Shown here: positions 16,426 through 34,312 of the stretch, in pieces
Position numbering within the stretch: position 1 is the stretch's first letter
Layout: each line of letters begins with the position of its first letter
From: Sulfurimicrobium lacus
GTDB lineage: Bacteria > Pseudomonadota > Gammaproteobacteria > Burkholderiales > Sulfuricellaceae
DNA: 64,000 nt
Direction of reading: 5' to 3'
Assembly (NCBI RefSeq): GCF_011764585.1
Contig: NZ_AP022853.1
Coordinates: forward strand, 1,347,501-1,411,500
The notes under the pieces: model-generated
What the model was told of the DNA's origin: nothing
Seen by the model: only the letters and a program-made list of their open reading frames with translations
The model's database searches: none
Made by a program: the position numbers and the translations under genes

Positions 16426-16480
16426 GCGGAAGCCTTTCCGCCTTAATCTCGCCTGACCCGCCCGCCACAATGGCGGCATG
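16426..16480 (+). promoter_or_regulatory. late promoter 1 (lysis/head-packaging unit, Plys position)
   Basis: A 16-bp palindrome GCGGAA-GCCT-TTCCGC at 16426-16441 is followed by CTTA. A -10-like CACAAT lies at 16466-16471, six bases before the ATG at 16478. The same layout with identical spacing occurs at 24019 and 34258. The palindrome centre is 44.5 bp upstream of the presumed +1, suiting an activator. If +1 is the A of ATG, the mRNA is leaderless. Confidence 0.65.
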
Positions 16481-16963
16481 ATTACTTCCCGCAAACTCGA
16501 CGACCTGCTGCTGCCGGTCAAAATCAAGGCCCTCGATCTCATCAACGAGTGCAAGGCGCACGGCATCGACCTGCTTGTCACTAGCACCTATCGCGATTTA
16601 GAGGCACAGGCCGCCCTTTACGCCCAGGGCAGGACCGCCCCCGGGCGCATCGTCACCAATGCCCGCTCCGGGCAGTCATTCCACAATTACCGCGTAGCCT
16701 TCGACGTGGTTCCATTGCGCGGCGGCAAGCCGGTATGGGGCACCACCGGCAACGGCATCGACAACGACCCGACAGACGATGACAAAGACGATCTGGAGCT
16801 GTGGCAGCGCATCGGCGCCATTGGAGAAGAGCTTGGCCTGGAATGGGCCGGGCGCTGGACACGCTTCCGCGAATACCCGCATTTTCAATACACCGGCGGG
16901 CTGACGCTGGCCGATTTCGCCGCAGGCAAAACGCTGCCCATCACCCAAAGAGCGACGTCATGA
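16478..16963 (+). CDS. endolysin, M15 family L-alanyl-D-glutamate peptidase
   Basis: 161 residues. Zinc-peptidase motifs are SFHNYRVAFDV (SxHxxxxAxD, ~67-77) and EYPHFQY (~135-141). The protein matches the length and order of phage T5-type M15 endolysins: LLPVKIKALDLINECKAHG, then the TSTYRDLEAQAALYAQGR fold motif. It cuts peptidoglycan stem peptides for lysis. No signal peptide, so it needs the holin. First gene of late unit 1; no Shine-Dalgarno in front of the ATG. Confidence 0.93.
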   Translation: MITSRKLDDLLLPVKIKALDLINECKAHGIDLLVTSTYRDLEAQAALYAQGRTAPGRIVTNARSGQSFHNYRVAFDVVPLRGGKPVWGTTGNGIDNDPTDDDKDDLELWQRIGAIGEELGLEWAGRWTRFREYPHFQYTGGLTLADFAAGKTLPITQRATS

Positions 16964-17064
16964 AGATCCGTGTCTGGCATGTAGCCGTAGGCGTGCTGGC
17001 CATCTCGGGGATTTTGTGGGCTGCGGTTATCTGGCTTGTCAGGGCGCTCGCGTCGTTACTTTAA
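16960..17064 (+). CDS. tiny single-helix membrane protein in the lysis cassette
   Basis: 34 residues (MKIRVWHVAVGVLAISG..., WAAVIWLV...), one transmembrane helix with a basic N-terminus. Its ATG overlaps the endolysin stop (ATGA). The place between endolysin and holin suggests an auxiliary lysis or antiholin-like function; sequence alone cannot prove it. Confidence 0.6.
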   Translation: MKIRVWHVAVGVLAISGILWAAVIWLVRALASLL

Positions 17065-17078
17065 CCAAGGATATAACC

Positions 17079-17588
17079 ATGGACTGGAAAGACCTGCTCG
17101 CTAAAATCGCACCCACCGTGGCCACCGTTCTGGGTGGCCCGTTCGCCGGGGTGGCTGCCGAGGCGCTTGCCTCCGCCCTCGGAACCGACCCCGCCAACGT
17201 GCAGAAGATGGTCGAGTCCGGCCAGATGACAGGCGAGCAGCTCGCCGCGATCCGCAAGGCAGAGATCGATCTGCAAGCACAGCTTCAGGCCCAGGGCGTG
17301 CAGCTCGAACAGATCGCCGCCTCCGACCGAGACAGCGCCCGCAAGCGCGAGTCCGAGGTCAAGGACTGGACACCGCGCATGCTGGCCTACGGCGTGACGC
17401 TGGGCTTCTTCGGCCTGCTGGCCTTCCTCGCCACCAACAGCGTCCCGCCCGCCTCGGAAAAGATCCTCGACATCATGGTCGGCACCCTCGGCACCAGCTG
17501 GGTGGGGATCGTCACCTACTACTTCGGCTCCAGCGCCGGCAGCGACCGCAAGACCACGCTGTTGTCCCAGGCGCAGCCCGTCAAATGA
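17079..17588 (+). CDS. holin, 3-TM phage family
   Basis: 169 residues from ATG 17079 (AAGG upstream). The N-terminal hydrophobic/Ala-Gly segment is APTVATVLGGPFAGVAAEAL (~10-30). A charged middle helix and two C-terminal transmembrane helices follow (MLAYGVTLGFFGLLAFLAT; IMVGTLGTSWVGIVTYYFG), with the basic tail typical of the holin-of-3TMs group. It forms the membrane lesion that releases the endolysin. Confidence 0.85.
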   Translation: MDWKDLLAKIAPTVATVLGGPFAGVAAEALASALGTDPANVQKMVESGQMTGEQLAAIRKAEIDLQAQLQAQGVQLEQIAASDRDSARKRESEVKDWTPRMLAYGVTLGFFGLLAFLATNSVPPASEKILDIMVGTLGTSWVGIVTYYFGSSAGSDRKTTLLSQAQPVK

Positions 17589-17806
17589 GACCGGAAGACT
17601 TCGCCCAGCAGATTGAGCTGGCCGAATGGGAGCATAACCAGGAAAAGGCCATCAGGGCCGCGCCAAGCCGCCCTTCGGCGGAAACCTGCGCCGAATGCGG
17701 CGACGCCATACCGGAAGACCGCCGCCTGGCGGAAATCGGCTGCACGCGCTGCGTGGAATGCCAGGCGCAGCACGAATATGAACAAAACAACCGAGGGAGA
17801 CGGTAG
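17585..17806 (+). CDS. TraR/DksA-type C4 zinc-finger protein
   Basis: 73 residues. The C4 finger is CAECGDAIPEDRR...CTRCVEC. Phage TraR/DksA mini-proteins bind RNA polymerase through the secondary channel. Overlaps the holin stop and the next gene, so translationally coupled. Confidence 0.88.
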   Translation: MRPEDFAQQIELAEWEHNQEKAIRAAPSRPSAETCAECGDAIPEDRRLAEIGCTRCVECQAQHEYEQNNRGRR

Positions 17807-18150
17807 TGGACTACACGGCAATGGATTTTTGGTGGAAGGTTTTCATCACCGTCATCAACATGGGCATCGGCGCGTACCTGTTCTGGGAGCGCCACAACGA
17901 CGGCACCCGGCGCCGCATCGATTCCATGGAAACCGACCTAGACGAGCGCCTGGACGACCACTCGTCGCGCCTGGCCAAGGTCGAGGCGCGCATGGATCTG
18001 TTGCCCAGCCATGAGGATCTCGGCGATCTGCACGAGCGCATCAACGATGTCTCCAAAAATCTGCACACGCTGACAGGCGAGATGACCGGCATCAAAACCA
18101 CGCTGGGCCTGATCCACCAGCATCTCTTGAACGGGGGCGGAAGACAATGA
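17806..18150 (+). CDS. DUF2730-type phage membrane protein
   Basis: 114 residues with GTG start (17806) after GAGGGAGA. One N-terminal transmembrane helix (WWKVFITVINMGIGAYLFW), then a long coiled coil (DSMETDLDERLDDHSSRLAK, HERINDVSKNLHTLTGEMTG). It matches the small coiled-coil DUF2730 proteins found between lysis and terminase genes in Mu-like phages. It may be a spanin-like or lysis accessory protein; unproven. Confidence 0.75.
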   Translation: MDYTAMDFWWKVFITVINMGIGAYLFWERHNDGTRRRIDSMETDLDERLDDHSSRLAKVEARMDLLPSHEDLGDLHERINDVSKNLHTLTGEMTGIKTTLGLIHQHLLNGGGRQ

Positions 18151-18440
18151 GCATTGCCCGCAGAATCGCCGAGGCCGACCGCCGCCGCGCAATCCTGGCG
18201 GCGCTTTCCATCTCCGCCGCCTACACGCTGCCGGAACGCGCATTGCGCGCCCAGGTGGAGGGCATCGGATATGCCTTATCACTGGATGTCCTGCGCGCCG
18301 ATATCGCTTGGCTAGCGGAAATCGGCCTGGTCGAGCGCGCAGAGATGGATGACGTCTCGCTCACCGATCGCGGGCTGGACATCGTACTGGGACGCGCCCA
18401 GGTGCCCGGCGTGCGCCGGCCCGAACCAGGCGAACTCTGA
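18147..18440 (+). CDS. VpaChn25_0724-type phage protein (winged helix)
   Basis: 97 residues with the family pattern RRRAILAALSISAAYTLPER, LSLDVLRADIAWLAEIGLVE, LTDRGLDIVLGRAQVPGVRR. It is a winged-helix-like protein fixed between DUF2730 and DUF1804 in Mu-like phages. Function unknown; overlaps both neighbours by a few bases. Confidence 0.8.
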   Translation: MSIARRIAEADRRRAILAALSISAAYTLPERALRAQVEGIGYALSLDVLRADIAWLAEIGLVERAEMDDVSLTDRGLDIVLGRAQVPGVRRPEPGEL

Positions 18441-18940
18441 TGGCACACGGAGAAGATACCCGCCGCGCCGTCAAGGCGGCCTTTGTGTTTGAGCAGCTCT
18501 CCCTGGAGATGGCCGCGCTCAAAATCGGCGTGCCGATCGCCACGGCCCGCAACTGGAAGCGCAGCGCCAAGGCGGCCGGGGACGATTGGGACAAGGCCCG
18601 CTCCGCCCAGCTGATCGCCGGCGGCGGGATCGAGGACGTGGTGCGCCAGACCCTGGCCGTGGTGGTGCAGCAGGTGCAAGCCACCATCGAGGCTATCCAG
18701 GCAGATCCCAATTTACAGCCCGGCGACAAGGTGAAGATGCTCGCCAGCCTGGCCGATGCGTACAACAAGATCATGGCGGCCTCGAGGCGGCTAATGCCGG
18801 AAACCGACAAGCTGGCGGTGGCCACCGACGTGGCCCGCCGCATGCTGGAATTCATCCGCGCCAACTACCCGCAGCACGCCGCCGCCTTCGCCGAGGTTCT
18901 CGGGCCGTTCGGCGAGGAACTGGCGAGGGCATATGGCTAA
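18440..18940 (+). CDS. DUF1804 protein, putative small terminase subunit (Mu gp27-like)
   Basis: 166 residues. An N-terminal HTH (FVFEQLSLEMAALKIGVPIATARNWKRSAK) is followed by an oligomerisation helix region. It lies directly upstream of the large terminase, as in Mu, and is presumed to recognise the pac end during headful packaging of transposed copies. Confidence 0.88.
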   Translation: MAHGEDTRRAVKAAFVFEQLSLEMAALKIGVPIATARNWKRSAKAAGDDWDKARSAQLIAGGGIEDVVRQTLAVVVQQVQATIEAIQADPNLQPGDKVKMLASLADAYNKIMAASRRLMPETDKLAVATDVARRMLEFIRANYPQHAAAFAEVLGPFGEELARAYG

Positions 18941-19163
18941 GCTATCAGCAGGCGCAGAAAGCGCGCTATCGGTAATCGCTCATATGGCCATGGCGAACCA
19001 GTTGGGTAAAAACGTACCTGGAATGGCCGACTTCCCAGAATTCTACAAAAAGCAAATGTCACGGCAGGACAGAGATGTCATCGATCAATTCGACCGGTTG
19101 TGCAAACAGGCCTATCGAGACTTAGCCAAGATGCTAAAGCAGGATCTAGCGAAAGATGGCTAG
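18933..19163 (+). CDS. small hypothetical packaging-region protein
   Basis: 76 residues, helical and charged (MADFPEFYKKQMSRQDRDVI, CKQAYRDLAKMLKQDL). It overlaps the start of the terminase by 8 bp and DUF1804 by 8 bp, so it is expressed with them. No known domain. Confidence 0.65.
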   Translation: MAKLSAGAESALSVIAHMAMANQLGKNVPGMADFPEFYKKQMSRQDRDVIDQFDRLCKQAYRDLAKMLKQDLAKDG

Positions 19164-20931
19164 CTCTAAACCCACCACCGAAAAAGACTTCCTCAAAGAG
19201 ATTGCCAACATCTCCCAGGAAGTCCGGGCGGAGATCGAAGCTCACCAGATCGGACTCGATCCGTCCCCGGCTGCCCGCGCCGAGCGGCGGCGCCGTGTCC
19301 TGAAGGACGGCGATTTCGAGTTCTTCTGCTACACCTATTTCCCGCACCACATCCGCCCGCCGGCGTCGCAGTTCCACCGGCACTTCTTCAAGCGCTTCCC
19401 GCAGATCCTGGACAAGCCTTCCGGCGCCAAGGAATGGTGGGTGGCGCCGCGCGGCGAGGCCAAGTCCTCGCTGACCACCAAGGTCGGCCCGTGCTGGGTG
19501 GCGGTGCGCGCGCTGCTGCAGAAGCCCGCGATCCGCGCCGAGGTCGGCTGGGAAGGCGAGACGCCGTACTTCATCGACTACATCACCATGCTGGGCGCGG
19601 AAACCAAGCTGCCCACCAAGCTGCTCGAAGTCGTTAAAGTCGAGCTGACGGTTAACGCCGCACTGGCGCTGGATTTCCCGGAGGCATGCGGGCCCACCAA
19701 GAACTGGAAGATCGGCGACTTCACCACCAAGTCCGGCGTCAAGGTCGAATCCTTCGGCGCCGAGCAGGCGATTCGCGGCACCTTCCACGGAGCCAGCCGA
19801 CCCAAGCTGCTCCTGGGCGACGATCTCATCACCGACAAGGAAGCCAAAAGCCCAACCGAGTGCAACAACCGCTGGGACTGGCTGGAGAAGGCCGTTGACT
19901 TCCTCGGCCCGCCAGAGGGCAACGTCAAGTTCGTCGGCGTCGGCACCGTGCTCAACAAGAACGACCCGATCAGCCGCGCCAAGGGTGCCATCGGCCACCT
20001 GGTGCATCATTTCCGCGCCCTCATCACCTTGCCGGCACGCATGGACATGTGGGAAGAATGCCAGGCCGTCATGCTCAACCAGGACAAGCCGGCGGAAGAA
20101 GAAGCATCCGAACGCGGCGAGGTGCTGGAAGAGTCCGGCTTGCCGTCCTACATTTTCTACCAGGCACACCGCGCCGAGATGGAAGAAGGCGCGGAAATCT
20201 CCTGGCCAGGCGTGCGCAGCCTGTTCTGGCTGATGCGCCAGCGCGCCAAGAACGCCCGGGCGTTCGCCACCGAAATGCAGGGCGACCCGAGGAGCGACGA
20301 AGACAAGATCTTCGCGCCGGTACGCTTCTTCGTCTCGCGCCTGCCGCACTGGATCATGCTGGGCGGCTGCGACCCGTCCATGGGCAAGGGTGAAAAATCC
20401 CACCCCAGCGCTCTGGTCGCCGGCGCCTACGACCACGAACGCGGCCGACTGCATGTCATCGAGGCGCGCATCAAGCGGCGCGTGCCGTCCAAGCTGGAAG
20501 CGGACCTGATCCAGTTCCAGCGGGACTTCCACTGCCTCGCCATCGGCTTCGAGAACAACAACGCCTATGAGCACTCCCGCCAGACCTTCATCACGGCCGG
20601 CCTCGCCAAGGGCGTGGCGCTGCCCCTGGTCGGCCTGACCGAGACGGTGGACCGGGAAGTCCGCATCGACGGCATGGAGCCGTACATTACCGACGCCTAC
20701 GACCCGCGCATTCTGTTCAGCCCGGAGTTAACGCAGTTGCTTTCCGAGCTGGATAGCTGGCCCGAAAAGCAAACCAGCCACGACTACGACGGCCTGTGCG
20801 CGCTGTACATCCTGTGGAAGCTGTGCGTGGTGCGAGGCATCACCGGCTCCGGCTTCCAATCCCTTCCCCGCCACCCGTCCGGATCCCGCGATGACGACGA
20901 CTACGGCAACCCATCCAGGAGAATGTTCTGA
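19156..20931 (+). CDS. terminase large subunit (Mu gp28-like)
   Basis: 591 residues. Packaging ATPase: Walker A-like PRGEAKSSLTTK (~98-109) and Walker B PKLLLGDDLI (~216-225). The RNase-H-like nuclease part includes MLGGCDPSMGKGEKSHPSALVAG and later acidic residues (FENNNAY). It translocates DNA into the prohead and cuts host-flanked phage DNA. Full length and in the usual place before the portal. Confidence 0.93.
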   Translation: MASSKPTTEKDFLKEIANISQEVRAEIEAHQIGLDPSPAARAERRRRVLKDGDFEFFCYTYFPHHIRPPASQFHRHFFKRFPQILDKPSGAKEWWVAPRGEAKSSLTTKVGPCWVAVRALLQKPAIRAEVGWEGETPYFIDYITMLGAETKLPTKLLEVVKVELTVNAALALDFPEACGPTKNWKIGDFTTKSGVKVESFGAEQAIRGTFHGASRPKLLLGDDLITDKEAKSPTECNNRWDWLEKAVDFLGPPEGNVKFVGVGTVLNKNDPISRAKGAIGHLVHHFRALITLPARMDMWEECQAVMLNQDKPAEEEASERGEVLEESGLPSYIFYQAHRAEMEEGAEISWPGVRSLFWLMRQRAKNARAFATEMQGDPRSDEDKIFAPVRFFVSRLPHWIMLGGCDPSMGKGEKSHPSALVAGAYDHERGRLHVIEARIKRRVPSKLEADLIQFQRDFHCLAIGFENNNAYEHSRQTFITAGLAKGVALPLVGLTETVDREVRIDGMEPYITDAYDPRILFSPELTQLLSELDSWPEKQTSHDYDGLCALYILWKLCVVRGITGSGFQSLPRHPSGSRDDDDYGNPSRRMF

Positions 20932-22496
20932 TGGCCATGAAAATACTGGATCAATTCGGCCAGCCGTTTACCCACCAGGAAGCACTTGCCGCGCCGCAGA
21001 CCAGTACGGTCACAACGCTGGCCAACACCTACATCCAGTCCGCCATCGATGGCCTCACACCCGCCCGGGCGGCACGCATCCTGCGCGACGCGGACAACGG
21101 CGACATCACCGCCCAGCAGCAGCTGTTCGACGATATGGAAGACCGCGACTCACACCTCCAGGGCGAGATGGCCAAACGCGCGGGCTCGCTGGTCGACCTG
21201 GAATGGTCGATCGAGCCGCCCCGCAACGCCAGCGCTGCGGAAAAGAGCGCGGCCGCCTGGGTGACGGAAGTGCTGCAGGACTACGTCGACGACTGGGAGG
21301 ATCTGCTCCTCGCCATGATGGCCGGCGTCGGGCGCGGCTTCGCGCCCGTCGAGCTGTCCTGGTCGCTCCTGGGCAAGGAACAGCTGCCGTCCTTCCAGCC
21401 CCAGCCGCAGACCTGGTTCCGCCTCTCCCAGGACCGGCGCGAGCTACGCCTCAAGGACAACAGCGCCAACGGTGCCGCCCTGTGGCAATTCGGCTGGATC
21501 ATGCATACCCACGGCAAGGCGCGCACCGGCTACCTCGGGCGCCTCGGCATCCTGCGCTCGCTGGTCTGGCCATTCCTCTATCGCGCCTACTCGGTGGGCG
21601 ACTTCGCCGAGTTCCTCGAAACCTACGGCCTGCCCATCATCGTCGGCAAGTATTTCTCCGGCGCGACGGATGCCGAAAAAGCCAGCCTGATGCGCGCCGT
21701 GACCTCTCTTGGCCACGACGCCCGCGCCATCATGCCCGTGGACATGGAGCTGGAGATCAACACCGTGACCGGCGGCGCCGGCAGATCGCATCACCTGGCG
21801 ATGGTGGAGTGGGCGGAGAAAGCCATCTCCAAGGCCATCCTGGGCGCCACGCTCACCAGCGGCGCCGACGGCAAGTCCAGCACCAACGCCCTGGGCAAGA
21901 TCCACAACGAAGTGCGCAGGGATATCCTGCGCTCGGATGCCCGCCAGATCGCCGGCACCCTGACCCGCGACCTGATCTACCCCATGATCGCCCTCAACAA
22001 GGGCGGCATCGACGGCCTGCGCCGCTGCCCGCGCCTGGTGTTCGACACCGGCGAAGCGGAGGACATCAAGCTGTTCAGCGAGGCCCTGCCGCCCCTGGTC
22101 GACCTCAACATGGAAATCCCCGTGGACTGGGCGCACGGCAAGCTGCGCATCCCAAGGCCAAAGGACGGGGAAGCGGTATTGCGCAAGGCGCCCGCAGCGC
22201 CTGCCCCCGACCAGGGGGCCGGGACGGCGGCCGCTACCGCAGCGCTGACTGCCAGCGTCCAGGGTCGGGATGAATTCGACGTGCTGGGCGACGAGCTGGC
22301 CGGCGACTGGGAGCGCGTGACGGATCCGCTGGTCGCGCCGATCGCGGCGCTGGCCGGCGAGGTGGATAGCTACGAGGCATTCCAGGCCCGGCTGCCGGCG
22401 CTGATCCAGGGCATGGATGAAACCGAGCTGGCAGACGCGCTGGCCCAGGGGCAGTTTGCCGCCCGGCTGTGGGGCAAGCTGAATGGCGGCCATTAA
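20931..22496 (+). CDS. portal protein (DUF935, Mu gp29-like)
   Basis: 521 residues. The DUF935 portal core is recognisable from GLTPARAARILRDADNGDI, LFDDMEDRDSHLQGEMAKR and LEWSIEPP through KTRTGYLG-like and GVGRGFAPVELSW segments. An Ala-rich linker at ~420-440 precedes the C-terminal helical region. It forms the dodecameric portal at the capsid vertex. ATG overlaps the terminase stop. Confidence 0.93.
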   Translation: MAMKILDQFGQPFTHQEALAAPQTSTVTTLANTYIQSAIDGLTPARAARILRDADNGDITAQQQLFDDMEDRDSHLQGEMAKRAGSLVDLEWSIEPPRNASAAEKSAAAWVTEVLQDYVDDWEDLLLAMMAGVGRGFAPVELSWSLLGKEQLPSFQPQPQTWFRLSQDRRELRLKDNSANGAALWQFGWIMHTHGKARTGYLGRLGILRSLVWPFLYRAYSVGDFAEFLETYGLPIIVGKYFSGATDAEKASLMRAVTSLGHDARAIMPVDMELEINTVTGGAGRSHHLAMVEWAEKAISKAILGATLTSGADGKSSTNALGKIHNEVRRDILRSDARQIAGTLTRDLIYPMIALNKGGIDGLRRCPRLVFDTGEAEDIKLFSEALPPLVDLNMEIPVDWAHGKLRIPRPKDGEAVLRKAPAAPAPDQGAGTAAATAALTASVQGRDEFDVLGDELAGDWERVTDPLVAPIAALAGEVDSYEAFQARLPALIQGMDETELADALAQGQFAARLWGKLNGGH

Positions 22497-23670
22497 GCTC
22501 GAATCCCTGCCGCCGGAGGAGGCGATCGCCTTCTTCCGCCAGAAGGGCTACAAGATCGGCTTCGACTGGCGGGACGTCTGGCAGCAGGAACACCAAGCCG
22601 CCTTCACCGTGGCCAAGGCTATGCAGCTCGATCTGCTGCGCGATATCCGCGCCGGCGTCGATGCCGCACTGGCCGACGGCACCCCCTTCGCCGACTTCCG
22701 CAAGAACCTGAAACCGCTCCTGGTGCAAAAGGGCTGGTGGGGCCGGGCCGACATGGCGGATCCGCTCACCGGCGAGGTGAAGAACGTGCAGCTGGGCAGC
22801 ACGCGCCGCCTCAAGACGATCTACGACATCAACCTGCGCACGGCGCACAGCGAAGGCCAGTGGGAGCGCATCCAGGCGAGCAAGCAGAGCTTCCCTTACC
22901 TGCAATACGACGGCAACAACAGCGAGCACCCACGCCTGCAGCATGCGGCGTGGGATGGCCTGATCTTTCGCGTCGACGATCCCATGGTGCAGACGATCGG
23001 CCCGGTCAAGGCATGGGGCTGCAAGTGTCGCTGGATACAGATGAGCCAGGGCATGATGGATCGGCGCGGGCTGCAGGTCAGCGAGCCGCCCAAGCTCACC
23101 ACCTACACCTACGTCAACAAGCGCACCGGCGAGACGCAGCAGATCCCGCAGGGCGTCGACCCGGCATTCAACTATCCCCCGGGCGGACGGCGGGCCAACC
23201 TGTCGAAGTTCATTACCGAGAAGCTCGATGCCGCCGACGTGCCGCTAGCGTCCGGCGCGCTCAAGAGCCTGGTGTCCGGCGAGGCGTTCGCGCGCTTCTT
23301 CGCCAAGCCGGAGGGGGTTTTCCCGATCGGCGTGCTGCCGGACGAGCACGTGTCCGCCATCGGGGCGAAGACGCACACGGTTCGGCTGTCGGCCGAGACC
23401 ATGCAGAAGCAGATCAACGTGCACCCGGAGCTGGCGCCGGAAGAATACGGGTTTGTGCAGCAGGCCATCGAGCGCGGCATGCGTATCCAGGACGGCGCCA
23501 ACTCGGCGATCTATTTGCTCGAGCTGGATGGGTATGTGACGGTGGTCAAGGCGACAGGAACGGGAAAGGCGGTATTCATGACCAGCTTCCGCCGGCTATC
23601 GAGCGACCAGGTGAAGCGGGACGAAGAGGTGCGCAGGCTGCTGCGCAAGGGAGATAAACACCAGAAATAG
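22483..23670 (+). CDS. MuF head-morphogenesis protein with C-terminal PBECR2-like nuclease-fold domain
   Basis: 395 residues. The N-terminal MuF (gp30-like) part includes ARTAHSEGQWERIQ-type and HPRLQHAAWDGLIFRVDDP segments ending in GCKCRWIQ. MuF proteins enter the prohead with the portal. The C-terminal ~110 residues (FPIGVLPDEHVSAIGAKTHT, LAPEEYGFVQQAIERG, VTVVKATGTGKAVFMTSFRR) match the phage Barnase-EndoU-ColicinE5/D-RelE-like nuclease (PBECR2) pattern. This may be an effector injected with the DNA. No immunity gene is evident beside it. It overlaps the portal gene by 14 bp. Confidence 0.85.
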   Translation: MAAIKLESLPPEEAIAFFRQKGYKIGFDWRDVWQQEHQAAFTVAKAMQLDLLRDIRAGVDAALADGTPFADFRKNLKPLLVQKGWWGRADMADPLTGEVKNVQLGSTRRLKTIYDINLRTAHSEGQWERIQASKQSFPYLQYDGNNSEHPRLQHAAWDGLIFRVDDPMVQTIGPVKAWGCKCRWIQMSQGMMDRRGLQVSEPPKLTTYTYVNKRTGETQQIPQGVDPAFNYPPGGRRANLSKFITEKLDAADVPLASGALKSLVSGEAFARFFAKPEGVFPIGVLPDEHVSAIGAKTHTVRLSAETMQKQINVHPELAPEEYGFVQQAIERGMRIQDGANSAIYLLELDGYVTVVKATGTGKAVFMTSFRRLSSDQVKRDEEVRRLLRKGDKHQK

Positions 23671-24018
23671 TCGCGGGCGGTGGGGCCCCCCGATCCGGTT
23701 TCCCGGCAACCCCACATGGCGCTCCGGCATTTCTGCCGTGCTACGGCCGGGGGAATATCACCGTGTCGCGCCCGCTTGCAGCCAGTATATTCCCCCGCCG
23801 AAAAATCCGCAAAACGAATTAAGCCGCTACGGCGTTCAGGACACCTTCCGGCTACCGCGTATCGCAAAAATTCTGCGCCGCGATTTTAACGGGGGGTTAA
23901 CGGCCTCTATGGTGGTATTTTTCTGTATCGCTCGATGCGGGTTTCTACTTATCCGCAAAATTTACATCCGCCGCCCGATCTGATAGGGTAAAAAAATCCT
24001 GCCGTAATCCATCCGACT
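23671..24018. other. non-coding central region with a long inverted repeat
   Basis: About 350 bp between MuF and protease genes without a convincing gene. It holds a perfect 11-bp inverted repeat (CGGGGGAATAT at 23748-23758, complement at 23787-23797), a GGGGCCCC palindrome near 23692, and an AT-rich stretch (about 23860-24000) before the late promoter. Roughly mid-prophage (15 kb of 33 kb). In Mu the strong gyrase site lies mid-genome next to gene I, so a comparable site is possible here. Confidence 0.45.
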
Positions 24019-24073
24019 GCGGAAGCGCTTCCGCCTTAACCACCCCTCTTCGCGCCGCCACAATGGCGGCATG
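24019..24073 (+). promoter_or_regulatory. late promoter 2 (head unit, PI position)
   Basis: Palindrome GCGGAA-GCGC-TTCCGC at 24019-24034, then CTTA, -10-like CACAAT at 24059-24064, and ATG at 24071. Spacing is identical to late promoter 1, and the downstream bases GGCGGCATGA are also shared. Confidence 0.65.
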
Positions 24074-25099: not shown

Positions 25100-25105
25100 T
25101 CACGC

Positions 25106-26584: not shown

Positions 26585-26598
26585 TAGTCGGCTGATCC

Positions 26599-26624
26599 AT
26601 GGCGGCCGGTTCGCTGGCCGCCAT
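26599..26624 (+). other. hairpin downstream of the capsid gene
   Basis: Perfect 9-bp stem ATGGCGGCC (26599-26607) with GGCCGCCAT (26616-26624), 8-nt loop, no T-run. The position right after a gpT gene recalls the conserved RNA element described downstream of Mu gpT genes. It could stabilise the abundant capsid mRNA. Whether it matches that element is not verifiable here. Confidence 0.5.
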
Positions 26625-26659
26625 CCGTGAGCCCCCTAATACGAACTGAGGAGATACCT

Positions 26660-27025: not shown

Positions 27026-27028
27026 TCC

Positions 27029-27526
27029 ATGCCATACGCCACCGCCACCAATCTGCTGGAGCAGTTCGGCGCCGAGGAGATCGCGCAGCGCGCCGATCGC
27101 GGCACGCCGCGCCTGGTGACGGCCGCGATGCTGAAGGCGGCCGCCGCTGCCGGCAGCCTCGCGGGCTACACCGCCGACGAGCAGGCGGCGACGGCTGAAG
27201 CGCTGGCGTTGGTCAATGCCAAGCTGCTCGATGCCGATAGCGCCATCAACGGTTACCTGGCCACGCGCTACCCGGTGCCCCTGGCCACCGTGCCGCGCCT
27301 GGTGCTGGTCGCGGCGTGCGACCTGGCGCGCTATGCGCTTTACGACGACATGGCCACCGAGACCATCACCACCCGCTACAAAGATGCGGTGAAGCTGCTC
27401 GAAGCCATCAGCAAGGGCTTGGTGAACCTGGGCGTAGACGCCAGCGGCGCCAAGCCGGAAACCAACAATGCCGCGCAGATGGTGTCTGCCGGCAAGGTGT
27501 TCGGGCGCGACGGGAGACGTTTATGA
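27029..27526 (+). CDS. DUF1320 head-tail joining protein (Mu gp36/J-like)
   Basis: 165 residues, starting MPYATATNLLEQFGAEEIAQ. The family pattern includes DADSAINGYLATRYPVPL and LVLVAACDLARYALYDD. It belongs to the neck/connector adaptor group. Stop overlaps the next ATG (ATGA). Confidence 0.9.
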   Translation: MPYATATNLLEQFGAEEIAQRADRGTPRLVTAAMLKAAAAAGSLAGYTADEQAATAEALALVNAKLLDADSAINGYLATRYPVPLATVPRLVLVAACDLARYALYDDMATETITTRYKDAVKLLEAISKGLVNLGVDASGAKPETNNAAQMVSAGKVFGRDGRRL

Positions 27527-28047
27527 GCGGCATCGTCCTGCGCGCCGACGTCGAAGACAGCGGCATCCGCGACGAGCTGAACCGGCTGATCGCCCTGGGC
27601 AGGAACCCGAGCGATGCGATGCGCGACATTGCGACCTACGGCGAGAACTCCACCCGCGAGCGCTTCAAGCTGCAGATCGACCCGGACGGCAACCGCTGGA
27701 AGCCAAGCCTGCGCGTGCAGCTGCGCGGCGGCCGGACGCTGACCAAGGACGGCCACCTGGGTAACTCGATCACCAGCCGCTCGAGCAAGGACGTAGCCGA
27801 GTGGGGCAGCAACCGAGAATACGCGGCTATCCATCAAATAGGGTTCGACGGGCAGATCAAAATCCCGGCACACCAGCGGGAAATCAGCACCGTATTCGGT
27901 AAAAAATTGAAGTCAAAGATGACGGTCAATGTGAGCGGCTATACCTTGCGTCAAAGAATCGTGGCGCGTGCCTATCTGGGCACCAACGCTGAAAACGCCG
28001 CCGACATCCTGGACCTGATTCAATACCGTATCGAGGGCGCGCACTGA
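27523..28047 (+). CDS. phage virion morphogenesis protein (gpG-like)
   Basis: 174 residues from ATG 27523, overlapping the gp36 stop. Motifs: RDIATYGENSTRERFKLQID, PDGNRWKPS and TKDGHLGNSITSRSS, as in the tail-completion/virion morphogenesis family. In Mu gene G lies before I; here it sits after gp36, as in many Mu-like prophages. Confidence 0.9.
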   Translation: MSGIVLRADVEDSGIRDELNRLIALGRNPSDAMRDIATYGENSTRERFKLQIDPDGNRWKPSLRVQLRGGRTLTKDGHLGNSITSRSSKDVAEWGSNREYAAIHQIGFDGQIKIPAHQREISTVFGKKLKSKMTVNVSGYTLRQRIVARAYLGTNAENAADILDLIQYRIEGAH

Positions 28048-28643
28048 TGTTTGCGGAACTGGAAGCCGGCCTGGTCCGGCTGGTGAAAAGCAGCGCGATC
28101 GGTCCGTTCCTGAAAGCGGTCGGCACCTTGCCGGACGATGATGAGGACAACCTGGTCAACCGCATGGCGGCCGATGCGCCCGCCGTTTACGTGGTGGCCG
28201 GGCGCAACTTCAAGGTCGAGGGCGGTCGCCTGGTGGTGCCGTTCGGATTGACCTGCATGGCTCGGAATTCGCGCGGACATGAAGACGCCCGGCGCGGCGA
28301 CGGCAAGGCGCTCGGCATGTACCAGATCCTGGAAGCCGTGCTCGGCCTGGCGGAAAACGGCTGGGCCGGCGGGTGCTACTGGCGCGTGAGCGATGTCGGA
28401 TTCCTGAATTCGGACAAGATCTGGAAAGCCGGGCTGACGGTCGGCGTGGTGACGGTGGAAACCACGGTCGCGATGCCCTCCGGGATCGACCTGGCAGCCT
28501 TGTCCGACTTCAAGACCTTCCATGCCGACTACGACATCCCGCCGATCGAAACCGCAGCGGAACACAACAAGTGGAAGCAGGAGCCGGCGGATTATTCCGC
28601 CAGCAAGCCCGAGCTGCAAGACACCATCATCATTCAGCCATAG
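28047..28643 (+). CDS. DUF1834 tail terminator-like protein (Mu gp37-like)
   Basis: 198 residues. The family pattern runs from FAELEAGLVRLVKSSAIGPF through LTCMARNSRGHEDARRGDG to YQILEAVLGLA, with the conserved WKAGLTVGVVTVETTV end region. Presumed tail-terminator/neck protein. ATG overlaps the previous stop. Confidence 0.88.
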   Translation: MFAELEAGLVRLVKSSAIGPFLKAVGTLPDDDEDNLVNRMAADAPAVYVVAGRNFKVEGGRLVVPFGLTCMARNSRGHEDARRGDGKALGMYQILEAVLGLAENGWAGGCYWRVSDVGFLNSDKIWKAGLTVGVVTVETTVAMPSGIDLAALSDFKTFHADYDIPPIETAAEHNKWKQEPADYSASKPELQDTIIIQP

Positions 28644-28651
28644 GAGGCACC

Positions 28652-28831
28652 ATGCAATTCGGTCAACCCATTATCGCCAAGCCCGTCAAGGGCCTGCGCA
28701 TCCGCAAAGAGGACGGCACGCAGCTGCCGGAGGAAGGCGACACCGTGATTCACAGCAGCTACTGGCAGCGCCGCAAGGACGATGGCGACGTGACCTTGAG
28801 CGAACTGCCCAAGGCCAGGAAGCAGGACTAA
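28652..28831 (+). CDS. DUF2635 protein (Mu gp38-like)
   Basis: 59 residues: AKPVKGLRIRKEDGTQLPEE, then SSYWQRRKDDGDVTL. A short beta-rich protein always directly before the sheath gene in Mu-like phages. AGGAGG Shine-Dalgarno just upstream. Confidence 0.85.
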   Translation: MQFGQPIIAKPVKGLRIRKEDGTQLPEEGDTVIHSSYWQRRKDDGDVTLSELPKARKQD

Positions 28832-28870
28832 CCGTTAAACCGCACCCTCGGGGGTTAAAAGGAGCAAACC

Positions 28871-30349
28871 ATGCCGGACAATATTACATTCATGACGATT
28901 CCCGTGGACTGGCGCGTGCCGGGCGCGTACATCGAGGTCGACCACCCCAAGGCCGTGCGCGGCCTGCCCCAGATGGCGCACCGGATGCTGATCCTCGGAC
29001 AGCGCCTGGCCGCCGGCACGGTGGCAGCCGGCGTATTGACCAAAGTGACGCGCTGGCAAGACGGCGTGAACTACTTCGGTCGCGGCTCCATGCTGGCGCA
29101 GCAGATCGCGGCCGCGCTCAAGGTCAACCCGTATACCGAATGCTACGCCCTGGCGCTCGACGACAACGGGGCCGGCAACGCGGCAGCGGGCACGATTGAA
29201 TTTACCGGCAGCCCGACCGAGAGCGGGACGCTGTACCTGTACATCGGCGGGCGCCGGCTGATGGTAGGCGTCACCGCCGCCCAGACCGTCGCGCAGATCG
29301 CCACCAACACGGCCGCCGCGATCAATGCGGATGCCGACGGCGCGGTGACCGCCGCCGCCGCGCTCGGCGTGGTGACCGTTACCAGCCGCCACAAGGGTAT
29401 CGAAGGCAACGATATCGACATCCGCCTCAACTACTACCAGGGCGAGGCCACGCCCAAGGGTTTGGTCGCCGCCATTACCGCCATGACGGGCGGCACCGCC
29501 AACCCAGACGTGTCGGCCGCGATCACGGCGATGAGCACGCTGGCCGCCTACAGCATCCTGATGGGCTGGACCGATGCGGCCAACGTGACGCTGATGGAAA
29601 ACGAGCTGCAGGCGCGCTGGGGCGGCATGGACATGCGCGCCGGCCACGTCTTCGGCCACAAGAACGGCAGCTACTCGGCGCTCTCGACTTACGGCAGCGC
29701 ACGCAACAGCGCGCACAGCACCTTCCCCGGACTCAAGAGCAGCCCGACCCTGCCGTGGGTGATCTCGGCGCAGTTCGGCGCGATCGTGGAATTCTCCGGC
29801 GCCAACGATCCGGCCGTTCCGTTCCGTTCTCTGCGCCTGCCGGACGTGATGGCGCCCCGGGAAGCGGACCGCTTCACCGATACCGAGCGCAACCTGCTGC
29901 TGCATGACGGCATCAGCACCGTCGTGTTCGATCAATCCGGCGCGGCCAGCATCGAGCAGGTGGTCACCACGTACCAGCAGAACAGCTTCGGCATCGAAGA
30001 CGTCAGCCTGCTCAAGCTCAACACCAAGTGGACGGTGGACTATCTGCGCTACATGTTCCGCGTGGCCGTGCTGCGCGATTACCCGCGCCACAAGCTGGCG
30101 AGCGACGACGTGCTGGGTATGATCCAGCCCGGCCAGGCCATCGCCACGCCCAAGCTGATCCGCAATACCTTGATCGCGGCCGCCACCCAGGCGGTCCGCG
30201 CCGGCCTGATGGAAAACCTGGAGGGATTCATCCGCGACCTGGTCGTGGTGCGTTCCGATGCGGACACCTGCCGCGTGAACTCGATCATGACGCCGGATAC
30301 GGTCAACCAGTTCGACGTGTTCGCCGGCGCAGTGCAGTACGTCCTTTAA
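28871..30349 (+). CDS. contractile tail sheath protein (Mu gpL-like)
   Basis: 492 residues. Starts with ITFMTIPVDWRVPGAYIEVD and contains the sheath core (AYSILMGWTDAANVTLMENE, RAGHVFGHKNGSYSALSTYG) and the C-terminal strand-exchange part (RVNSIMTPDTVNQFDVFAG). Polymerises around the tube and contracts on infection. AAAAGGAGC upstream gives a strong ribosome site. Confidence 0.95.
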   Translation: MPDNITFMTIPVDWRVPGAYIEVDHPKAVRGLPQMAHRMLILGQRLAAGTVAAGVLTKVTRWQDGVNYFGRGSMLAQQIAAALKVNPYTECYALALDDNGAGNAAAGTIEFTGSPTESGTLYLYIGGRRLMVGVTAAQTVAQIATNTAAAINADADGAVTAAAALGVVTVTSRHKGIEGNDIDIRLNYYQGEATPKGLVAAITAMTGGTANPDVSAAITAMSTLAAYSILMGWTDAANVTLMENELQARWGGMDMRAGHVFGHKNGSYSALSTYGSARNSAHSTFPGLKSSPTLPWVISAQFGAIVEFSGANDPAVPFRSLRLPDVMAPREADRFTDTERNLLLHDGISTVVFDQSGAASIEQVVTTYQQNSFGIEDVSLLKLNTKWTVDYLRYMFRVAVLRDYPRHKLASDDVLGMIQPGQAIATPKLIRNTLIAAATQAVRAGLMENLEGFIRDLVVVRSDADTCRVNSIMTPDTVNQFDVFAGAVQYVL

Positions 30350-30367
30350 CCAAGCGAGGAGCAAGAC

Positions 30368-30718
30368 ATGACACAAGTATTTGGCCGGGCGTTTATCACC
30401 GTCGCCGGCAAGCGCTACAACACTAAGGCGGGCGCGAGCCTTAAATTCGGCGGCATCGATCGTAAGCCGGTGATCGGCGATGGCGGGGTTGCCGGTTTCC
30501 AGGAAACGATCGAAGCGCCGGAAGTGGATTGCACCATCATCGCCACCGGAGAGGTGAGCCTGGCGGAAATCCAGAAGCTGACCGACTTCACCCTGAGCTT
30601 TGATACCGATACCGGGCGCAGCTACGTGATCGCCAATGCCTTCAACGGGCCGGTTCCGGAATTATCCAACGATGGCATCAAGGCCAAGTTCTACGGCATC
30701 GAAGGGAAGGAAGTTTAA
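30368..30718 (+). CDS. tail tube protein (Mu gpM-like)
   Basis: 116 residues of beta-rich sequence (GRAFITVAGKRYNTKAGASL, FQETIEAPEVDCTIIATGEV, GIKAKFYGIEGKEV), the family's usual length and position after the sheath. Forms the inner tail tube. Confidence 0.93.
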   Translation: MTQVFGRAFITVAGKRYNTKAGASLKFGGIDRKPVIGDGGVAGFQETIEAPEVDCTIIATGEVSLAEIQKLTDFTLSFDTDTGRSYVIANAFNGPVPELSNDGIKAKFYGIEGKEV

Positions 30719-31035
30719 TGCAAACCATCACAGGGAAATTCAAGCACGGCCTGAAAATCGGCGAGGTGATTCATACCGCTTTCGAGATGCGCGAGGCGGA
30801 CGTCGAAGACATGATGGAAGCGGAAATGGAAGCCGCCCAGGTCGGCGGGGGTGCGCATACGCCGATCCTCTTCAACGCCCAGATGATGCTGCGCCAGCTG
30901 GTCAAGGTGACAGCGGCGGACGGATCGGAGTTTGCCGGCCCCTTCACCACCAACATGTTGAAAAGGCTGAAGCCTGCGGACTATCGCGCGCTGCGCGAGA
31001 AACAAGGAGAGCTAGACGAGTTGGGGGAAGCCTAG
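30718..31035 (+). CDS. tail assembly chaperone, short form (Mu gp41-like)
   Basis: 105 residues; ATG shares its A with the last base of the tube stop (TAATG). Helical, KHGLKIGEVIHTAFEMREAD and TAADGSEFAGPFTTNMLKRL. Its end overlaps a longer -1 frameshift product. The short form coats the tape measure during tail assembly. Confidence 0.88.
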   Translation: MQTITGKFKHGLKIGEVIHTAFEMREADVEDMMEAEMEAAQVGGGAHTPILFNAQMMLRQLVKVTAADGSEFAGPFTTNMLKRLKPADYRALREKQGELDELGEA

Positions 31036-31181
31036 TCGCGCGACGGCGCGGGATGTTCGACAGCATCCTGCTGATCGCGCTGAAGACCGGCTGGCGGCGC
31101 CGAGACATTCTCGATCTGCCGGCCGCCGAATTCAATCACTACCTGGAACGACTGACAAAAAACGCCAATGGGAACCCGTGA
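30718..31181 (+). CDS. tail assembly chaperone, -1 frameshift fusion (Mu gp41-42-like)
   Basis: A GGGGG run at 31023-31027 near the end of gp41 (codons TTG GGG GAA) allows a -1 slip that leads into GSLVARRRGMFDSILLIALK... and a stop at 31179-31181. The join is 30718-31026 with 31026-31181, giving 154 residues. Programmed -1 frameshifting at this gene pair is the rule in tailed phages including Mu. The extension is out of frame without the slip and overlaps the tape-measure start. Confidence 0.75.
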
Positions 31182-33000
31182 CTTAACGCTATCGATGAAG
31201 CTCTACGCTGACACAGCCCGGTTTGTATCCGGGCTGGTGTCTGCCGAGGGCGGCGTGCGCAAATTCACCGGCGGCGTGAAGCGCGAGTTCGAAGCGCTCA
31301 AGGGCGCCATGAACTCGGTGGAGGGAAAGCTGGCATCGATCGGGGTATCGGTCGGCGCCGTGGCCACCATCATGCAATCGGCCAGGATGGACAAGAGCCT
31401 GACGCAGATCGGCCAGACCGCCGGCGCCAGCGAGCGCGACGTGGCCGGCTTGCGCAGCGAGTTGTTCCGCATGAGTGCAGAGACCGGACAGAACGTCGAC
31501 GACCTGCAGCAGGGCTTCAACAACGCCGTGCAGGCCGGACTGCAGTTCAAGGAAGCGCTGCCGGTGATCGATGCCACCAACCGGGCGATGGCGGTGACCG
31601 GCGCGAGCGCCGACAAGCTGACCGGGTCGCTGACCGTCGCCGGTACCGCGTTCGATTTCGACCTGGCCAAGCCGAGGATGGCAGCCACGCTGCTGGACAA
31701 GATGACCGTGGCCGGCCGCCTGGGCAATGCCGAGCTGGAAAATCTTTCCGATATTTTCGCCCGGGTAGGCCCGAATGCCGCCGCTGCAGGCTTGGGCTTC
31801 GACAAGACGCTGGCTTTCATCGAGGGCCTGTCGCAGATCGAGCGCCAGCCCGAGCGCCTGGCCACCCTGGCAGACAGCACGCTGCGCCTGTTCACCAACC
31901 TGCGCTACATGAAGGATGCGCAGAAGGCGACCGGCATCAAGTTTTTCGACAAGGACGGTTCGCGCCGCGATGCCCTGGCGGTGCTGGCCGACATCAAGAA
32001 ACAATACGACAAGCTCGGCACCGAAAAAAGCCGGGCGGTTTTCATTCAGAAGGCGTTCGGCCAGGCCGACCTGGACACGATCAAAGGCCTGCGGGTGCTG
32101 CTGTCCGGAGACATGCTGGGCAAGATCAATTCGTTCTCCACGCAAATCGCCGGCGCGAGCGGTGCGATCGCACGCGACTTGCCCAAGGCGATCAGCAATT
32201 CGGTCGACCAGGTCGGGCGGCTCAAATCCGCGCTCCGATCGGCGGCGGATAATTTCTCGAAGCCGATCAATGAATCCCTCTCCGGCCTCATCAAATGGGG
32301 CATGGACAAGAAGGCAAACGGCGGACTCGGCATGGACGGCAAGGATATGCTCCTGGGCGCCGGCGCCGGCAGCCTGGCATTGTTCGGCGCGACACGTTAC
32401 GGCGGCAAGGCAGTCGGCGCGCTGGCCAAGCGCTTCGGGGGCACAGCTGCCGGCGTGGCGGAAGGAAAGGCACTGGAAACCGCCGCCGGCGTGACGCCGG
32501 TGTTTGTAGTCAACCTGCCTGGTAGCGGAATCTCCGGGCTGAGCCCGGCGGCGCAAGCCGGCTCGGCCGCCGCGCTGGGCGGCGCCGGCGCGTTCGCGGC
32601 AAAGAACCTCAAGACCACCGCCGCGTTGCTGGGCGGCTCCAACCTGGCCGCGTTGCGCATGATGGGCACCGGCGCGATCGGATCGGCCGGCGCGGCAACG
32701 GCGGCGGCTGGCGCAGTGGGATACGGGGTCGGCACACTGGGTTACAAGTATGGCCTGGAAGGCAATGCCAGCGGCGATGCGATCGGATCTGTCATCGCCA
32801 AGACGCTGGCGCTGTTCGGCAACGAAGAGGCCCGGCGCTCCGTCGAGATGACCGAGAAATTCAAGGCCGCCCAAATCGGAGGCGATATTCGGATCTTTAT
32901 CGACCAGGAAGGCCGTGCCGCTATTTCCGGCGTTAAAAGCAGCCAGCCGGGTGTGCGTTTTAACGTCCATTCCGGTCCCTACATGATGGGTCAGAACTGA
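31168..33000 (+). CDS. tail tape measure protein
   Basis: 610 residues. The N-terminal TP901-type core has ALKGAMNSVEGKLASIGVSV, QIGQTAGASERDVAGLRSEL and GFDKTLAFIEGLSQI. A central Ala/Gly-rich hydrophobic zone (~390-540) could form the membrane-spanning segment released at infection. Sets tail length. Starts inside the end of the chaperone fusion. Confidence 0.92.
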   Translation: MGTRDLTLSMKLYADTARFVSGLVSAEGGVRKFTGGVKREFEALKGAMNSVEGKLASIGVSVGAVATIMQSARMDKSLTQIGQTAGASERDVAGLRSELFRMSAETGQNVDDLQQGFNNAVQAGLQFKEALPVIDATNRAMAVTGASADKLTGSLTVAGTAFDFDLAKPRMAATLLDKMTVAGRLGNAELENLSDIFARVGPNAAAAGLGFDKTLAFIEGLSQIERQPERLATLADSTLRLFTNLRYMKDAQKATGIKFFDKDGSRRDALAVLADIKKQYDKLGTEKSRAVFIQKAFGQADLDTIKGLRVLLSGDMLGKINSFSTQIAGASGAIARDLPKAISNSVDQVGRLKSALRSAADNFSKPINESLSGLIKWGMDKKANGGLGMDGKDMLLGAGAGSLALFGATRYGGKAVGALAKRFGGTAAGVAEGKALETAAGVTPVFVVNLPGSGISGLSPAAQAGSAAALGGAGAFAAKNLKTTAALLGGSNLAALRMMGTGAIGSAGAATAAAGAVGYGVGTLGYKYGLEGNASGDAIGSVIAKTLALFGNEEARRSVEMTEKFKAAQIGGDIRIFIDQEGRAAISGVKSSQPGVRFNVHSGPYMMGQN

Positions 33001-34211
33001 TGGCCTGGCGCGATCAATGGCAAGAGGCCAGCTTTCGCGGGGTCAAGTTCCGCTTTCGCTCTGCCGCCGGCGCGCTCGGCCGCCGCAACGTGGTGCACGA
33101 ATATCCCGGGCGCGATGAAGCCTATGTGGAAGACATGGGCCGCAAGGCGCGCGAATTCACTTTCGAAGCCTTCGTCATCGGCGCCGATTACATGCGCTGG
33201 CGCGATCAGCTGGAGGAAGCTTGCGAGAAGGAAGGTTCTGGCGAGCTGGTGCATCCGACGCGCGGTCGCATGCAGGTGGCTGTCCAGGATTGCCGCCCGA
33301 CGGAAAATATCGACGCCGGTGGCATGGCGAGCTACGCGCTCACCTTCATCCAGGATGGCGGCAACCTTAACCCGTCGGTGCGCGTGGACACGTCAGCCGC
33401 GGTTGACATCGCCGGCGACAATGCGACCGACGCGGCATCCAAGGATTTCAGCAAGTCGTTCAAGGTCGACGGCATGCCGGATTTCGTCAACAACGATGCG
33501 CTGGCCACGATCAATGACGCCATGGACGGCATCCGCGCTGCGGCGAACGGCATGATGCCGGACATGAGCATTCTGCCGGCATTCAACGCGGCGGCCGGCG
33601 GCATCCTGGGCAAACTCACCGCGCTCATGCGCTTGCCGACAGACCTGGCATCCGGCATCGCCGGGCAGATCGCCGGCCTGCGCGCTTTGGGGACGTCGCC
33701 GCTGTCCGCCTTCAATGCGCTCGCCACGCTGTTCCAGTTCGGCAAGCATGCGCAGACGAGCGGTTACGTTCCGGCGGTTCCCGTCACGCCGGCGCGTATT
33801 CAGCAGGCCAGTAACCGCGCCGCCGTGCAGACGCTGGTGCGCCGGATCGCACTGATCGAGGCGGCCAAGGCATCTTCGAGCGTCAAGTATGCATCGCGCG
33901 AAGAGGCGATCGCCTTACGCGATAACCTGGTGGCCAAGCTGGAAGCCGAGGCCGAGGATGGGGCGGCGCCGGATCCGGTCTATTTCGCCCTTACGGATCT
34001 GCGCGTGGCGGTCGTCAACGATATTCAAACCCGGGCGGCGGACCTGGAGAGCCTGATGCAGTACACGCCGCGCGCGACCGTGCCGGCAATCGTGCTGGCG
34101 TATCAGATCTACGAAGATCCGGAGCGTGACGAGGATATCGTCGCGCGCAATCGGGTTAAGCATCCGGGCTTTGTGCCTGGCGGTCGTGCGCTTGAGTTGT
34201 TGACAGGCTGA
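33000..34211 (+). CDS. DNA circularisation/tail protein N (Mu gp43-like)
   Basis: 403 residues. N-terminal family signature: WQEASFRGVKFRFRSAAGAL, GRRNVVHEYPGRDEAYVEDM, WRDQLEEACEKEGSGELVHP. The ATG overlaps the tape-measure stop (TGATG). Baseplate hub-proximal tail protein; Mu N also protects ends of injected DNA. Last gene of late unit 2. Confidence 0.92.
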   Translation: MAWRDQWQEASFRGVKFRFRSAAGALGRRNVVHEYPGRDEAYVEDMGRKAREFTFEAFVIGADYMRWRDQLEEACEKEGSGELVHPTRGRMQVAVQDCRPTENIDAGGMASYALTFIQDGGNLNPSVRVDTSAAVDIAGDNATDAASKDFSKSFKVDGMPDFVNNDALATINDAMDGIRAAANGMMPDMSILPAFNAAAGGILGKLTALMRLPTDLASGIAGQIAGLRALGTSPLSAFNALATLFQFGKHAQTSGYVPAVPVTPARIQQASNRAAVQTLVRRIALIEAAKASSSVKYASREEAIALRDNLVAKLEAEAEDGAAPDPVYFALTDLRVAVVNDIQTRAADLESLMQYTPRATVPAIVLAYQIYEDPERDEDIVARNRVKHPGFVPGGRALELLTG

Positions 34212-34257
34212 CTGAAAACTTTTAACTTGCAGTTTCCTTCCTGATTCCGCCCTCTTA

Positions 34258-34312
34258 GCGGAATTGTTTCCGCCTTATCCCGTATGCCTTGAGACCTTAT
34301 TCTCAAGGCATG
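34258..34312 (+). promoter_or_regulatory. late promoter 3 (tail P unit)
   Basis: Palindrome GCGGAA-TTGT-TTCCGC at 34258-34273, CTTA, -10-like TATTCT at 34298-34303, ATG at 34310. The 32-nt spacing between CTTA and ATG is the same as in the other two late promoters although the intervening sequence is unrelated. An extra inverted repeat (GCCTTGAGA at 34286-34294, complement 34301-34309) overlaps the hexamer. Confidence 0.65.

Follow-up and report, generated by a model that had tools for sequence, protein, structure and literature searches.

In bacteriophage Mu, the middle and late promoters are described as activator-dependent and as read with the host sigma70 (PMC4461284), and the Mor site in Pm as a 16-base-pair (bp) element with inverted repeats, centred at −43.5 (PMC4390567). 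In phage T4, the account given for I-TevI is of a structure found only on transcripts from upstream promoters, its folding being prevented when transcription starts at the late promoter, and the same source describes read-through hairpins for other T4 late genes (soc, e and more) (PMC2988022). For sigG of Bacillus subtilis, a hairpin is predicted to block the translation of RNA that reads through from the upstream operon, and transcripts of the gene's own promoter are described as not being able to fold it (PMC5942855). Here we describe three sites in a Mu-like prophage of Sulfurimicrobium lacus, in a 64,000-nucleotide stretch of contig NZ_AP022853.1 (positions 1,347,501 to 1,411,500 of the forward strand; hereafter, the window). 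Judging from sequence, we consider it probable that they belong to a class of late promoters served by a Mor/C-family activator, mostly giving leaderless mRNAs, and that each carries in addition a lock against the translation of read-through RNA.

Layout and Rarity of the Three Sites

At each site, all on the forward strand, the palindrome GCGGAA-N4-TTCCGC is followed by CTTA and, after exactly 32 nucleotides (nt), by ATG (at 16478, 24071, and 34310), and a −10-like hexamer (CACAAT, CACAAT, and TATTCT at sites 1, 2, and 3) ends 6 nt before each ATG. This arrangement is present just as an initial annotation of the window had described it, and the palindrome centre that it had placed at about −45 computes to −44.5 when the A of ATG is taken as +1. 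At site 1, the predicted activator palindrome (GCGGAA-GCCT-TTCCGC, 16426–16441) is followed by a weak −35-like TTAATC (16443–16448), 17 nt before the −10 box CACAAT (16466–16471), and then by lys (16478–16963), which encodes an M15/VanY-type endolysin and is predicted to be leaderless, with +1 at the A of its ATG at 16478. Site 2 consists of the predicted activator palindrome GCGGAA-GCGC-TTCCGC (24019–24034), a weak −35-like TTAACC (24036–24041), and the −10 box CACAAT (24059–24064), ahead of gene I, a head maturation protease gene likewise predicted to be leaderless (24071–25099). Site 3, between genes N and P, has the predicted activator palindrome GCGGAA-TTGT-TTCCGC (34258–34273), a weak −35-like TTATCC (34275–34280), and the −10 box TATTCT (34298–34303). 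The initial annotation had further equated the sites with Mu Plys, PI, and PP and predicted leaderless mRNAs from them. They do correspond to the Mu lys, I, and P regions, and leaderless mRNAs are predicted at sites 1 and 2 and at many sites in relatives, but the third ATG is not the start of gpP, which lies at 34335. A search with the consensus sigma70 promoter picked up none of the three sites.

The 20-mer GCGGAAN4TTCCGCCTTA has three copies in the whole 3,826,324-base genome, all of them in the window, while the reversed pattern, used as a control, has none. The bare palindrome occurs at four places in the genome, three of them in the window (two for the backwards control), and with up to two mismatches it occurs 13 times in the window against 6.86 expected, a count reached by 3 of 100 shuffles. 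Because the loose palindrome alone is only mildly enriched, the weight of this evidence rests on the exact match and the fixed spacing.

Recurrence of the Promoter Signature in Other Phages

When viral contigs were scanned with the 20-mer, asking only for the palindrome and CTTA, at least 100 stretches were obtained. Sites lying no more than 40 nt (5′) or 110 nt (3′) from the end of a locus, and those with flanks at least 60% identical to a site already kept, were dropped before any count; 83 distinct sites yielded 63 non-redundant ones (60 viral plus the three of the window), with sites of other kinds kept in. In this set an A at −11 occurs in 52 of 63 sites and a T at −7 in 53 of 63; these are positions of the sigma70 −10 box, and neither was required by the scan. 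An ATG begins at the predicted +1 in 32 sites, at +2 in 10, and at +3 in 3, or 45 of the 63 in all, and directly after CTTA there is an A in 41 of 63 sites and a C in 40 of 63. The converse scan, requiring −11A, −7T, and ATG but not CTTA, found CTTA at 34 of 48 distinct places; this is the fair count, 43 of 54 being biased by the collection of most loci via CTTA. The same redundancy rule gave 94 sites in another set, in which 80 have both −11A and −7T, a biased figure since the underlying scan required both.

The start region was compared in 62 sites chosen for −11A, −7T, and an ATG at +1 to +3, the three window sites included. A pyrimidine (C or T) directly precedes the ATG in 61 of them, and 56 of the ATGs begin open reading frames (ORFs) of at least 60 codons or run off the locus. 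The initial annotation had remarked on missing Shine-Dalgarno (SD) sites, which is borne out here: an SD-like motif precedes 2 of the 62 starts, compared with 184 of 471 mechanically called control ORFs of the same loci (P = 4e-10). PHROG families were assigned to 59 of the 62 downstream proteins (ORFs of at least 50 codons). Among the first 25 of 47 families, two head maturation protease families, which may overlap, have 14 and 12 members and the baseplate hub has 10, with at most six members in any amidase/endolysin family.

A scan of genome contigs returned 43 stretches, many of them in Nitrosomonas, Sideroxydans, Gallionella, Methylophilaceae, Rhodocyclus, and other betaproteobacteria and some in Mariprofundus and Acinetobacter; those in unrelated groups are probable chance matches. 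We regard the case for predicted promoters at these sites as strong, and their more specific reading as activator-dependent and mostly leaderless late promoters appears well supported.

An Inverted Repeat around the −10 Box

Each of the three window sites also has an inverted repeat, absent from the initial annotation, that spans the −10 box and extends to the ATG; its arms differ between sites while their complementarity is kept. At site 1 the repeat is CCGCCA-CAA-TGGCGG (16462–16476, forward strand, as are the other two), with its 5′ arm upstream of the predicted +1 and its 3′ arm ending 1 nt before the ATG. At site 2 it is GCCGCCA-CAA-TGGCGGC (24054–24070) and abuts the ATG, and at site 3 it is ATGCCTTGAGA-N6-TCTCAAGGCAT (34284–34311), unlike the other two in sequence and pairing into the ATG. 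The predicted folds of sites 1, 2, and 3 have energies of −9.8, −15.5, and −22.3 kcal/mol, the last over a longer stretch; the best predicted fold of site 1 pairs only part of the repeat.

The best stem averages 5.67 bp over 45 sites, versus 4.12 ± 0.15 bp when 3′ arms are swapped between sites, and none of 1000 swaps reaches the observed value. When 3′ arms were swapped only within a class, the corresponding means were 5.78 versus 4.49 and 4.65 versus 3.73 for the two classes, again with 0 of 1000 swaps in each. Over a 30-nt window whose end lies in the start codon, the folding z relative to shuffles averages −2.00 for the 62 promoter starts and −0.25 for 400 others (P = 7e-14; the 400 were folded out of 513 control starts, and promoter windows end at base 2 of the ATG, those of controls at base 3). 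Control windows placed upstream and downstream gave −0.59, +0.41, and −0.27. The mean predicted unpaired probability is 0.26 for positions −6 to +3 in read-through RNA, compared with 0.76 for the AUG in promoter RNA.

Twelve sites with a leader were also inspected, seven of which have an SD that could be scored. The predicted unpaired probability of the SD rises from 0.20 with upstream sequence to 0.75 in RNA from the predicted +1 in L083, from 0.25 to 0.68 in L229, and from 0.05 to 0.72 in L246; in L006 the SD opens in part (0.00 to 0.35) once the sequence upstream of +1 is omitted. In these computed folds, as in a T4-type read-through lock, the pairing requires sequence upstream of the late +1 and touches the start codon or the SD.

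From these features we infer a course of events that takes in the 5′ end of the RNA, the binding of the activator, the existence of read-through RNA, and an effect of the lock on translation. Host sigma70 RNA polymerase, with a Mor/C-family activator on the 16-bp palindrome at about −44.5, would read each late promoter and start RNA at the A of ATG or at most two bases from it, so that most such mRNAs would be leaderless and need no SD. The 5′ arm would then never be part of the promoter's own transcript, because that RNA would start at the ATG. RNA derived from upstream would hold both arms and form a hairpin beside or over the start codon (or, in some leadered relatives, the SD), whereas RNA born at the promoter, without the 5′ arm, would be more open. 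With the hairpin confined to read-through RNA, the first gene of each late operon would therefore be translated mainly from its own promoter. Our confidence that the repeat may act as such a lock is moderate.

Alternatively, these could be plain leaderless late promoters whose repeat has no role in RNA and instead reflects the composition of GC-rich spacers or the opening of DNA at −10, a possibility that we judge unlikely. It is true that in each window site the loop of the repeat contains or overlaps the −10 box, and one class has spacers with GCGCGC runs, which easily pair with themselves; however, the stems are reproduced neither by dinucleotide shuffles nor by within-class swaps, and arm sequences vary between sites yet remain complementary. 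Arms of 5–11 bp are moreover short for cruciforms, and in L229 and L246 the sequence upstream of +1 pairs with the SD, not around the −10.

Leader hairpins are common, as would suit another alternative, in which transcription begins ahead of the repeat and the hairpin, as part of a 5′ leader, either stabilises the mRNA or tunes its translation. A precedent is sigG, for which a leader hairpin in the gene's own mRNA is described as reducing translation (PMC5942855). At the sites studied here this reading is highly improbable: the −11A/−7T signature and the pyrimidine before the A put +1 on the ATG, and an earlier start would mean an mRNA with no SD and a folded start region.

The Likely Activator and Its Presumed Recognition Helix

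Matches to the Mor/C family (PF08765) occur in all 16 motif phage contigs given, 15 of them over the curated cut-off (three of the contigs are near-identical, and one is the window's own phage), and in two copies in Mu. The family was not found in four contigs tested, two with an operator-type arrangement (L014 and L063) and two from other phages. Among 18 genomes given from behind the loci of the genome scan, Mor is present in 10 of the 12 proteobacterial ones (not in L135 or L123) and in one of the six with probable chance matches. A Mor/C-family protein is the likely activator, and we consider support for this reading good; neither this candidate nor the damage to its gene in the window had been pointed out in the initial annotation. 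Two other families were tried for this role and rejected, phrog_2119 (14260–14592) and phrog_2030 (13692–14282), which are in only 10 and 11, respectively, of the 16 contigs that all have the Mor family; the near-identical L032, L056, and L092, a group with SD leaders, are without both.

The two operator-type contigs belong to another phage group (L007, L009, L014, L017, L025, L036, and L063) that raises the possibility that the palindrome is the operator of a repressor rather than an activator site. In that group the palindrome follows a TTGACA-like hexamer and mostly has a second copy upstream, as operators do, and the two contigs of the group that were tested have no Mor match. At the late sites, in contrast, the palindrome stands ahead of the core promoter at a constant −44.5, a search picked up no consensus promoter there, and the sites co-occur with the Mor family; we consider an operator there extremely unlikely.

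All 16 proteins, the remnant in the window included, carry R-x-[IV]-R, which aligns with the end of the helix-turn-helix of Mu Mor and C; these two carry other residues in the aligned helix. We infer that this stretch is the recognition helix.

The initial annotation had looked to related phages for the palindrome at the same positions, and the outcome was mixed. Twelve loci other than the window's own were found through gpP homology, and the palindrome precedes P in none of them (one, L189, offers only 63 nt and is not judgeable), which leads us to reject the idea that it is part of a P gene module; nor is there an exact copy in any of the contigs of these loci, some of which are short, three having a match with one mismatch. 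A Mor-family match is present in 4 of the 12, three strong and full-length; one, G037, is of the window's type. G037, whose gpP is 74% identical, has no exact GCGGAA palindrome, but its lys and I are each preceded, with the same spacing, by a variant, ACCGAA-N4-TTCGGT, centred 45.5 and 44.5 nt before the ATGs of the amidase and the protease. In the Mor of G037, SYRRIEQ (R-R-I-E) stands where the window type has TERQIRN. The two ACCGAA sites were chosen, from a loose scan that gave many other short palindromes, for their common half-site, their −10, and the amidase and protease downstream. The ACCGAA element precedes a protease in 11 of 13 stretches, G037 included, of which several are near-identical and two (L204 and L208) look like chance matches; a Mor match is absent from ten contigs with the ACCGAA palindrome, several of them short fragments.

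Within the order, 58 of 399 genomes contain 80 Mor places. Forty were analysed, taken among the weaker matches with the 35 strongest left out; seven of them gave no helix, and one, L224, coincides by contig number and coordinates with a place also found in the L145 genome. Where the helix position is R, CGGAA sites carrying −11A and −7T are present in 6 of 12 Mor regions; where it is some other residue, they are present in 0 of 21. Among the Y-type regions, one contains two CTGAA sites and three others have near matches. A link between helix and palindrome, though not a code, appears likely.

In L229, L238, and L246 the palindrome lies directly upstream of mor (near 1770–1830, on the strand of mor), and this placement suggests self-activation. 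Self-activation under the same lock is possible in L229 and L246, where the SD is predicted to pair with sequence upstream of +1.

Observations That Count against the Explanation

Several results weigh against the explanation that joins an activator, leaderless starts, and a lock. Only three of the seven scored leadered sites are clear, with L006 partial; the SD of L066 (0.60 to 0.89) and of L238 (0.56 to 0.67) changes little, and that of L112 moves in the opposite direction (0.59 to 0.46). Because the sites share ancestry, the permutation and rank tests overstate their independence. In the window itself, site 3 is not a simple leaderless gene, and the late promoters may be idle in this strain.

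Other results bear on the activator. A relaxed CTGAA scan (up to two mismatches, a −10, and a start codon) found 7 sites in 4 of the 8 Y-type regions; another 10 turned up in 6 of the remaining 32 regions, so that the scan does not separate the types, although the sites are real features of Mor regions, the same scan giving none on the reverse strands of all 40. There is no site in 6 of the 12 R-type regions (four of them fragments of less than 8 kilobases), in 4 of the 8 Y-type regions, or in either E-type region (L241 and L244), nor in nine viral relatives of the E- and Y-type proteins, of which L258–L260 are alike and whose contigs are cut. Because of these regions and relatives without a site, we keep a strict helix-to-base code only as a lead.

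The ATG of site 3, at 34310, begins an ORF of just 14 codons (MNNSPFFAHVGRRD; 34310–34354, forward strand), which starts at the predicted +1 and overlaps the start of gpP. Gene P, the baseplate hub gene (34335–35441, forward strand), begins in another frame, 25 nt past the predicted +1. Another phage, L005, has a 13-codon ORF at the equivalent place, ending on the next ATG. The residues NNSP are present in both short ORFs. A run of six T lies at 34324–34329, within the short ORF ahead of gpP.

The activator gene of the window is a remnant on the forward strand (frame open at 14710–14970, Mor match at 14731–14928) that encodes the C-terminal half, with LTERQIRNIL, and lacks the N-terminal half that its relatives have. 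It is the only Mor match in the whole genome, and for this reason the late promoters may be idle here. The preceding piece in another frame (14577–14732) has no counterpart in 12 other phage contigs. The Mu-like prophage is probably defective.

Other Features of the Prophage

A terminator-like hairpin followed by TGTCTTTT (16397–16417, forward strand) lies directly upstream of the lys palindrome, which alone is weak evidence: terminator-like sites in 16300–34400 number 15, against 15.5 expected. Among the 62 sites, nine, including site 1 of the window, have such a hairpin within 40 nt upstream of the palindrome, compared with 0.38 expected in shuffles. Downstream of the tail genes, two adjacent ORFs on the minus strand (41969–42482) have translations that resemble a YoeB/YefM-type toxin-antitoxin pair. 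The translation of another ORF after the tail genes (40784–41581) resembles a Dam-type DNA adenine methylase.

Comparison with Known Systems and Implications

The predicted late promoters resemble Mu Pm, read with Mor, and Plys, PI, and PP, read with C, in standing at the same operon starts, in having a probable Mor/C-family activator and a 16-bp dyad, here at −44.5, and in their predicted dependence on that activator and on host sigma70. The traits of a Mu-type promoter are found together: a dyad of about 16 bp near −43.5, a sigma70 −10 with a poor −35, and an encoded Mor/C protein (in the window, a remnant). Unlike Mu, they have a different half-site and a different recognition helix; each of the 16 motif contigs has one Mor-family gene region, whereas Mu has two; and leaderless mRNA and a pre-start inverted repeat are predicted here. 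A search of the Mu genome found the palindrome absent and no perfect 6-4-6 repeat in this arrangement. Because the palindrome is absent from Mu and the helix residues differ, these sites cannot be called the same operator as that of Mu, although they may be called the same kind of promoter.

As with the T4 late genes, the structure is predicted to form only on RNA from upstream promoters. T4, in contrast, hides an SD and uses its own type of late promoter, whereas the starts described here are mostly leaderless and would depend on a Mor-family activator, with the proposed lock repeated at several operons of one phage. The sigG case differs in that it concerns one chromosomal gene, which has a ribosome-binding site; its hairpin is much longer (at least 20 pairs), and no phage activator is involved. 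The predicted +1 at the A of ATG and the missing SD are shared with bacterial leaderless genes; unlike in other leaderless genes, the starts predicted here come with both an activator palindrome and an inverted repeat just before the start codon. In the titles and opening parts of abstracts that our open-access searches returned, we found no account for Mu-like phages of this palindrome, of late promoters that are leaderless, or of a lock of this type.

The system is thus ordinary in kind, comprising activator-dependent phage late promoters, and unusual in design. Tentatively, and at close to even chances, we extend it to many transposable phages with one Mor-type activator. Their late operons would need two keys, a leaderless activator-dependent promoter that starts inside a covarying repeat and translation only of the RNA born at that promoter; some would have mor itself behind the same palindrome and its SD locked in the same way, and helix and half-site (C[G/T/C]GAA) would change together. 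The design, if it holds, would supply a general rule, open to testing, for how many still uncharacterised Mu-like phages control their late genes, one that gives the positions of late promoters, the protein that reads them, and the silencing of the first genes of late operons on upstream RNA. The helices of the Mor family, set beside their palindromes, may reveal how this activator family shifts its specificity.

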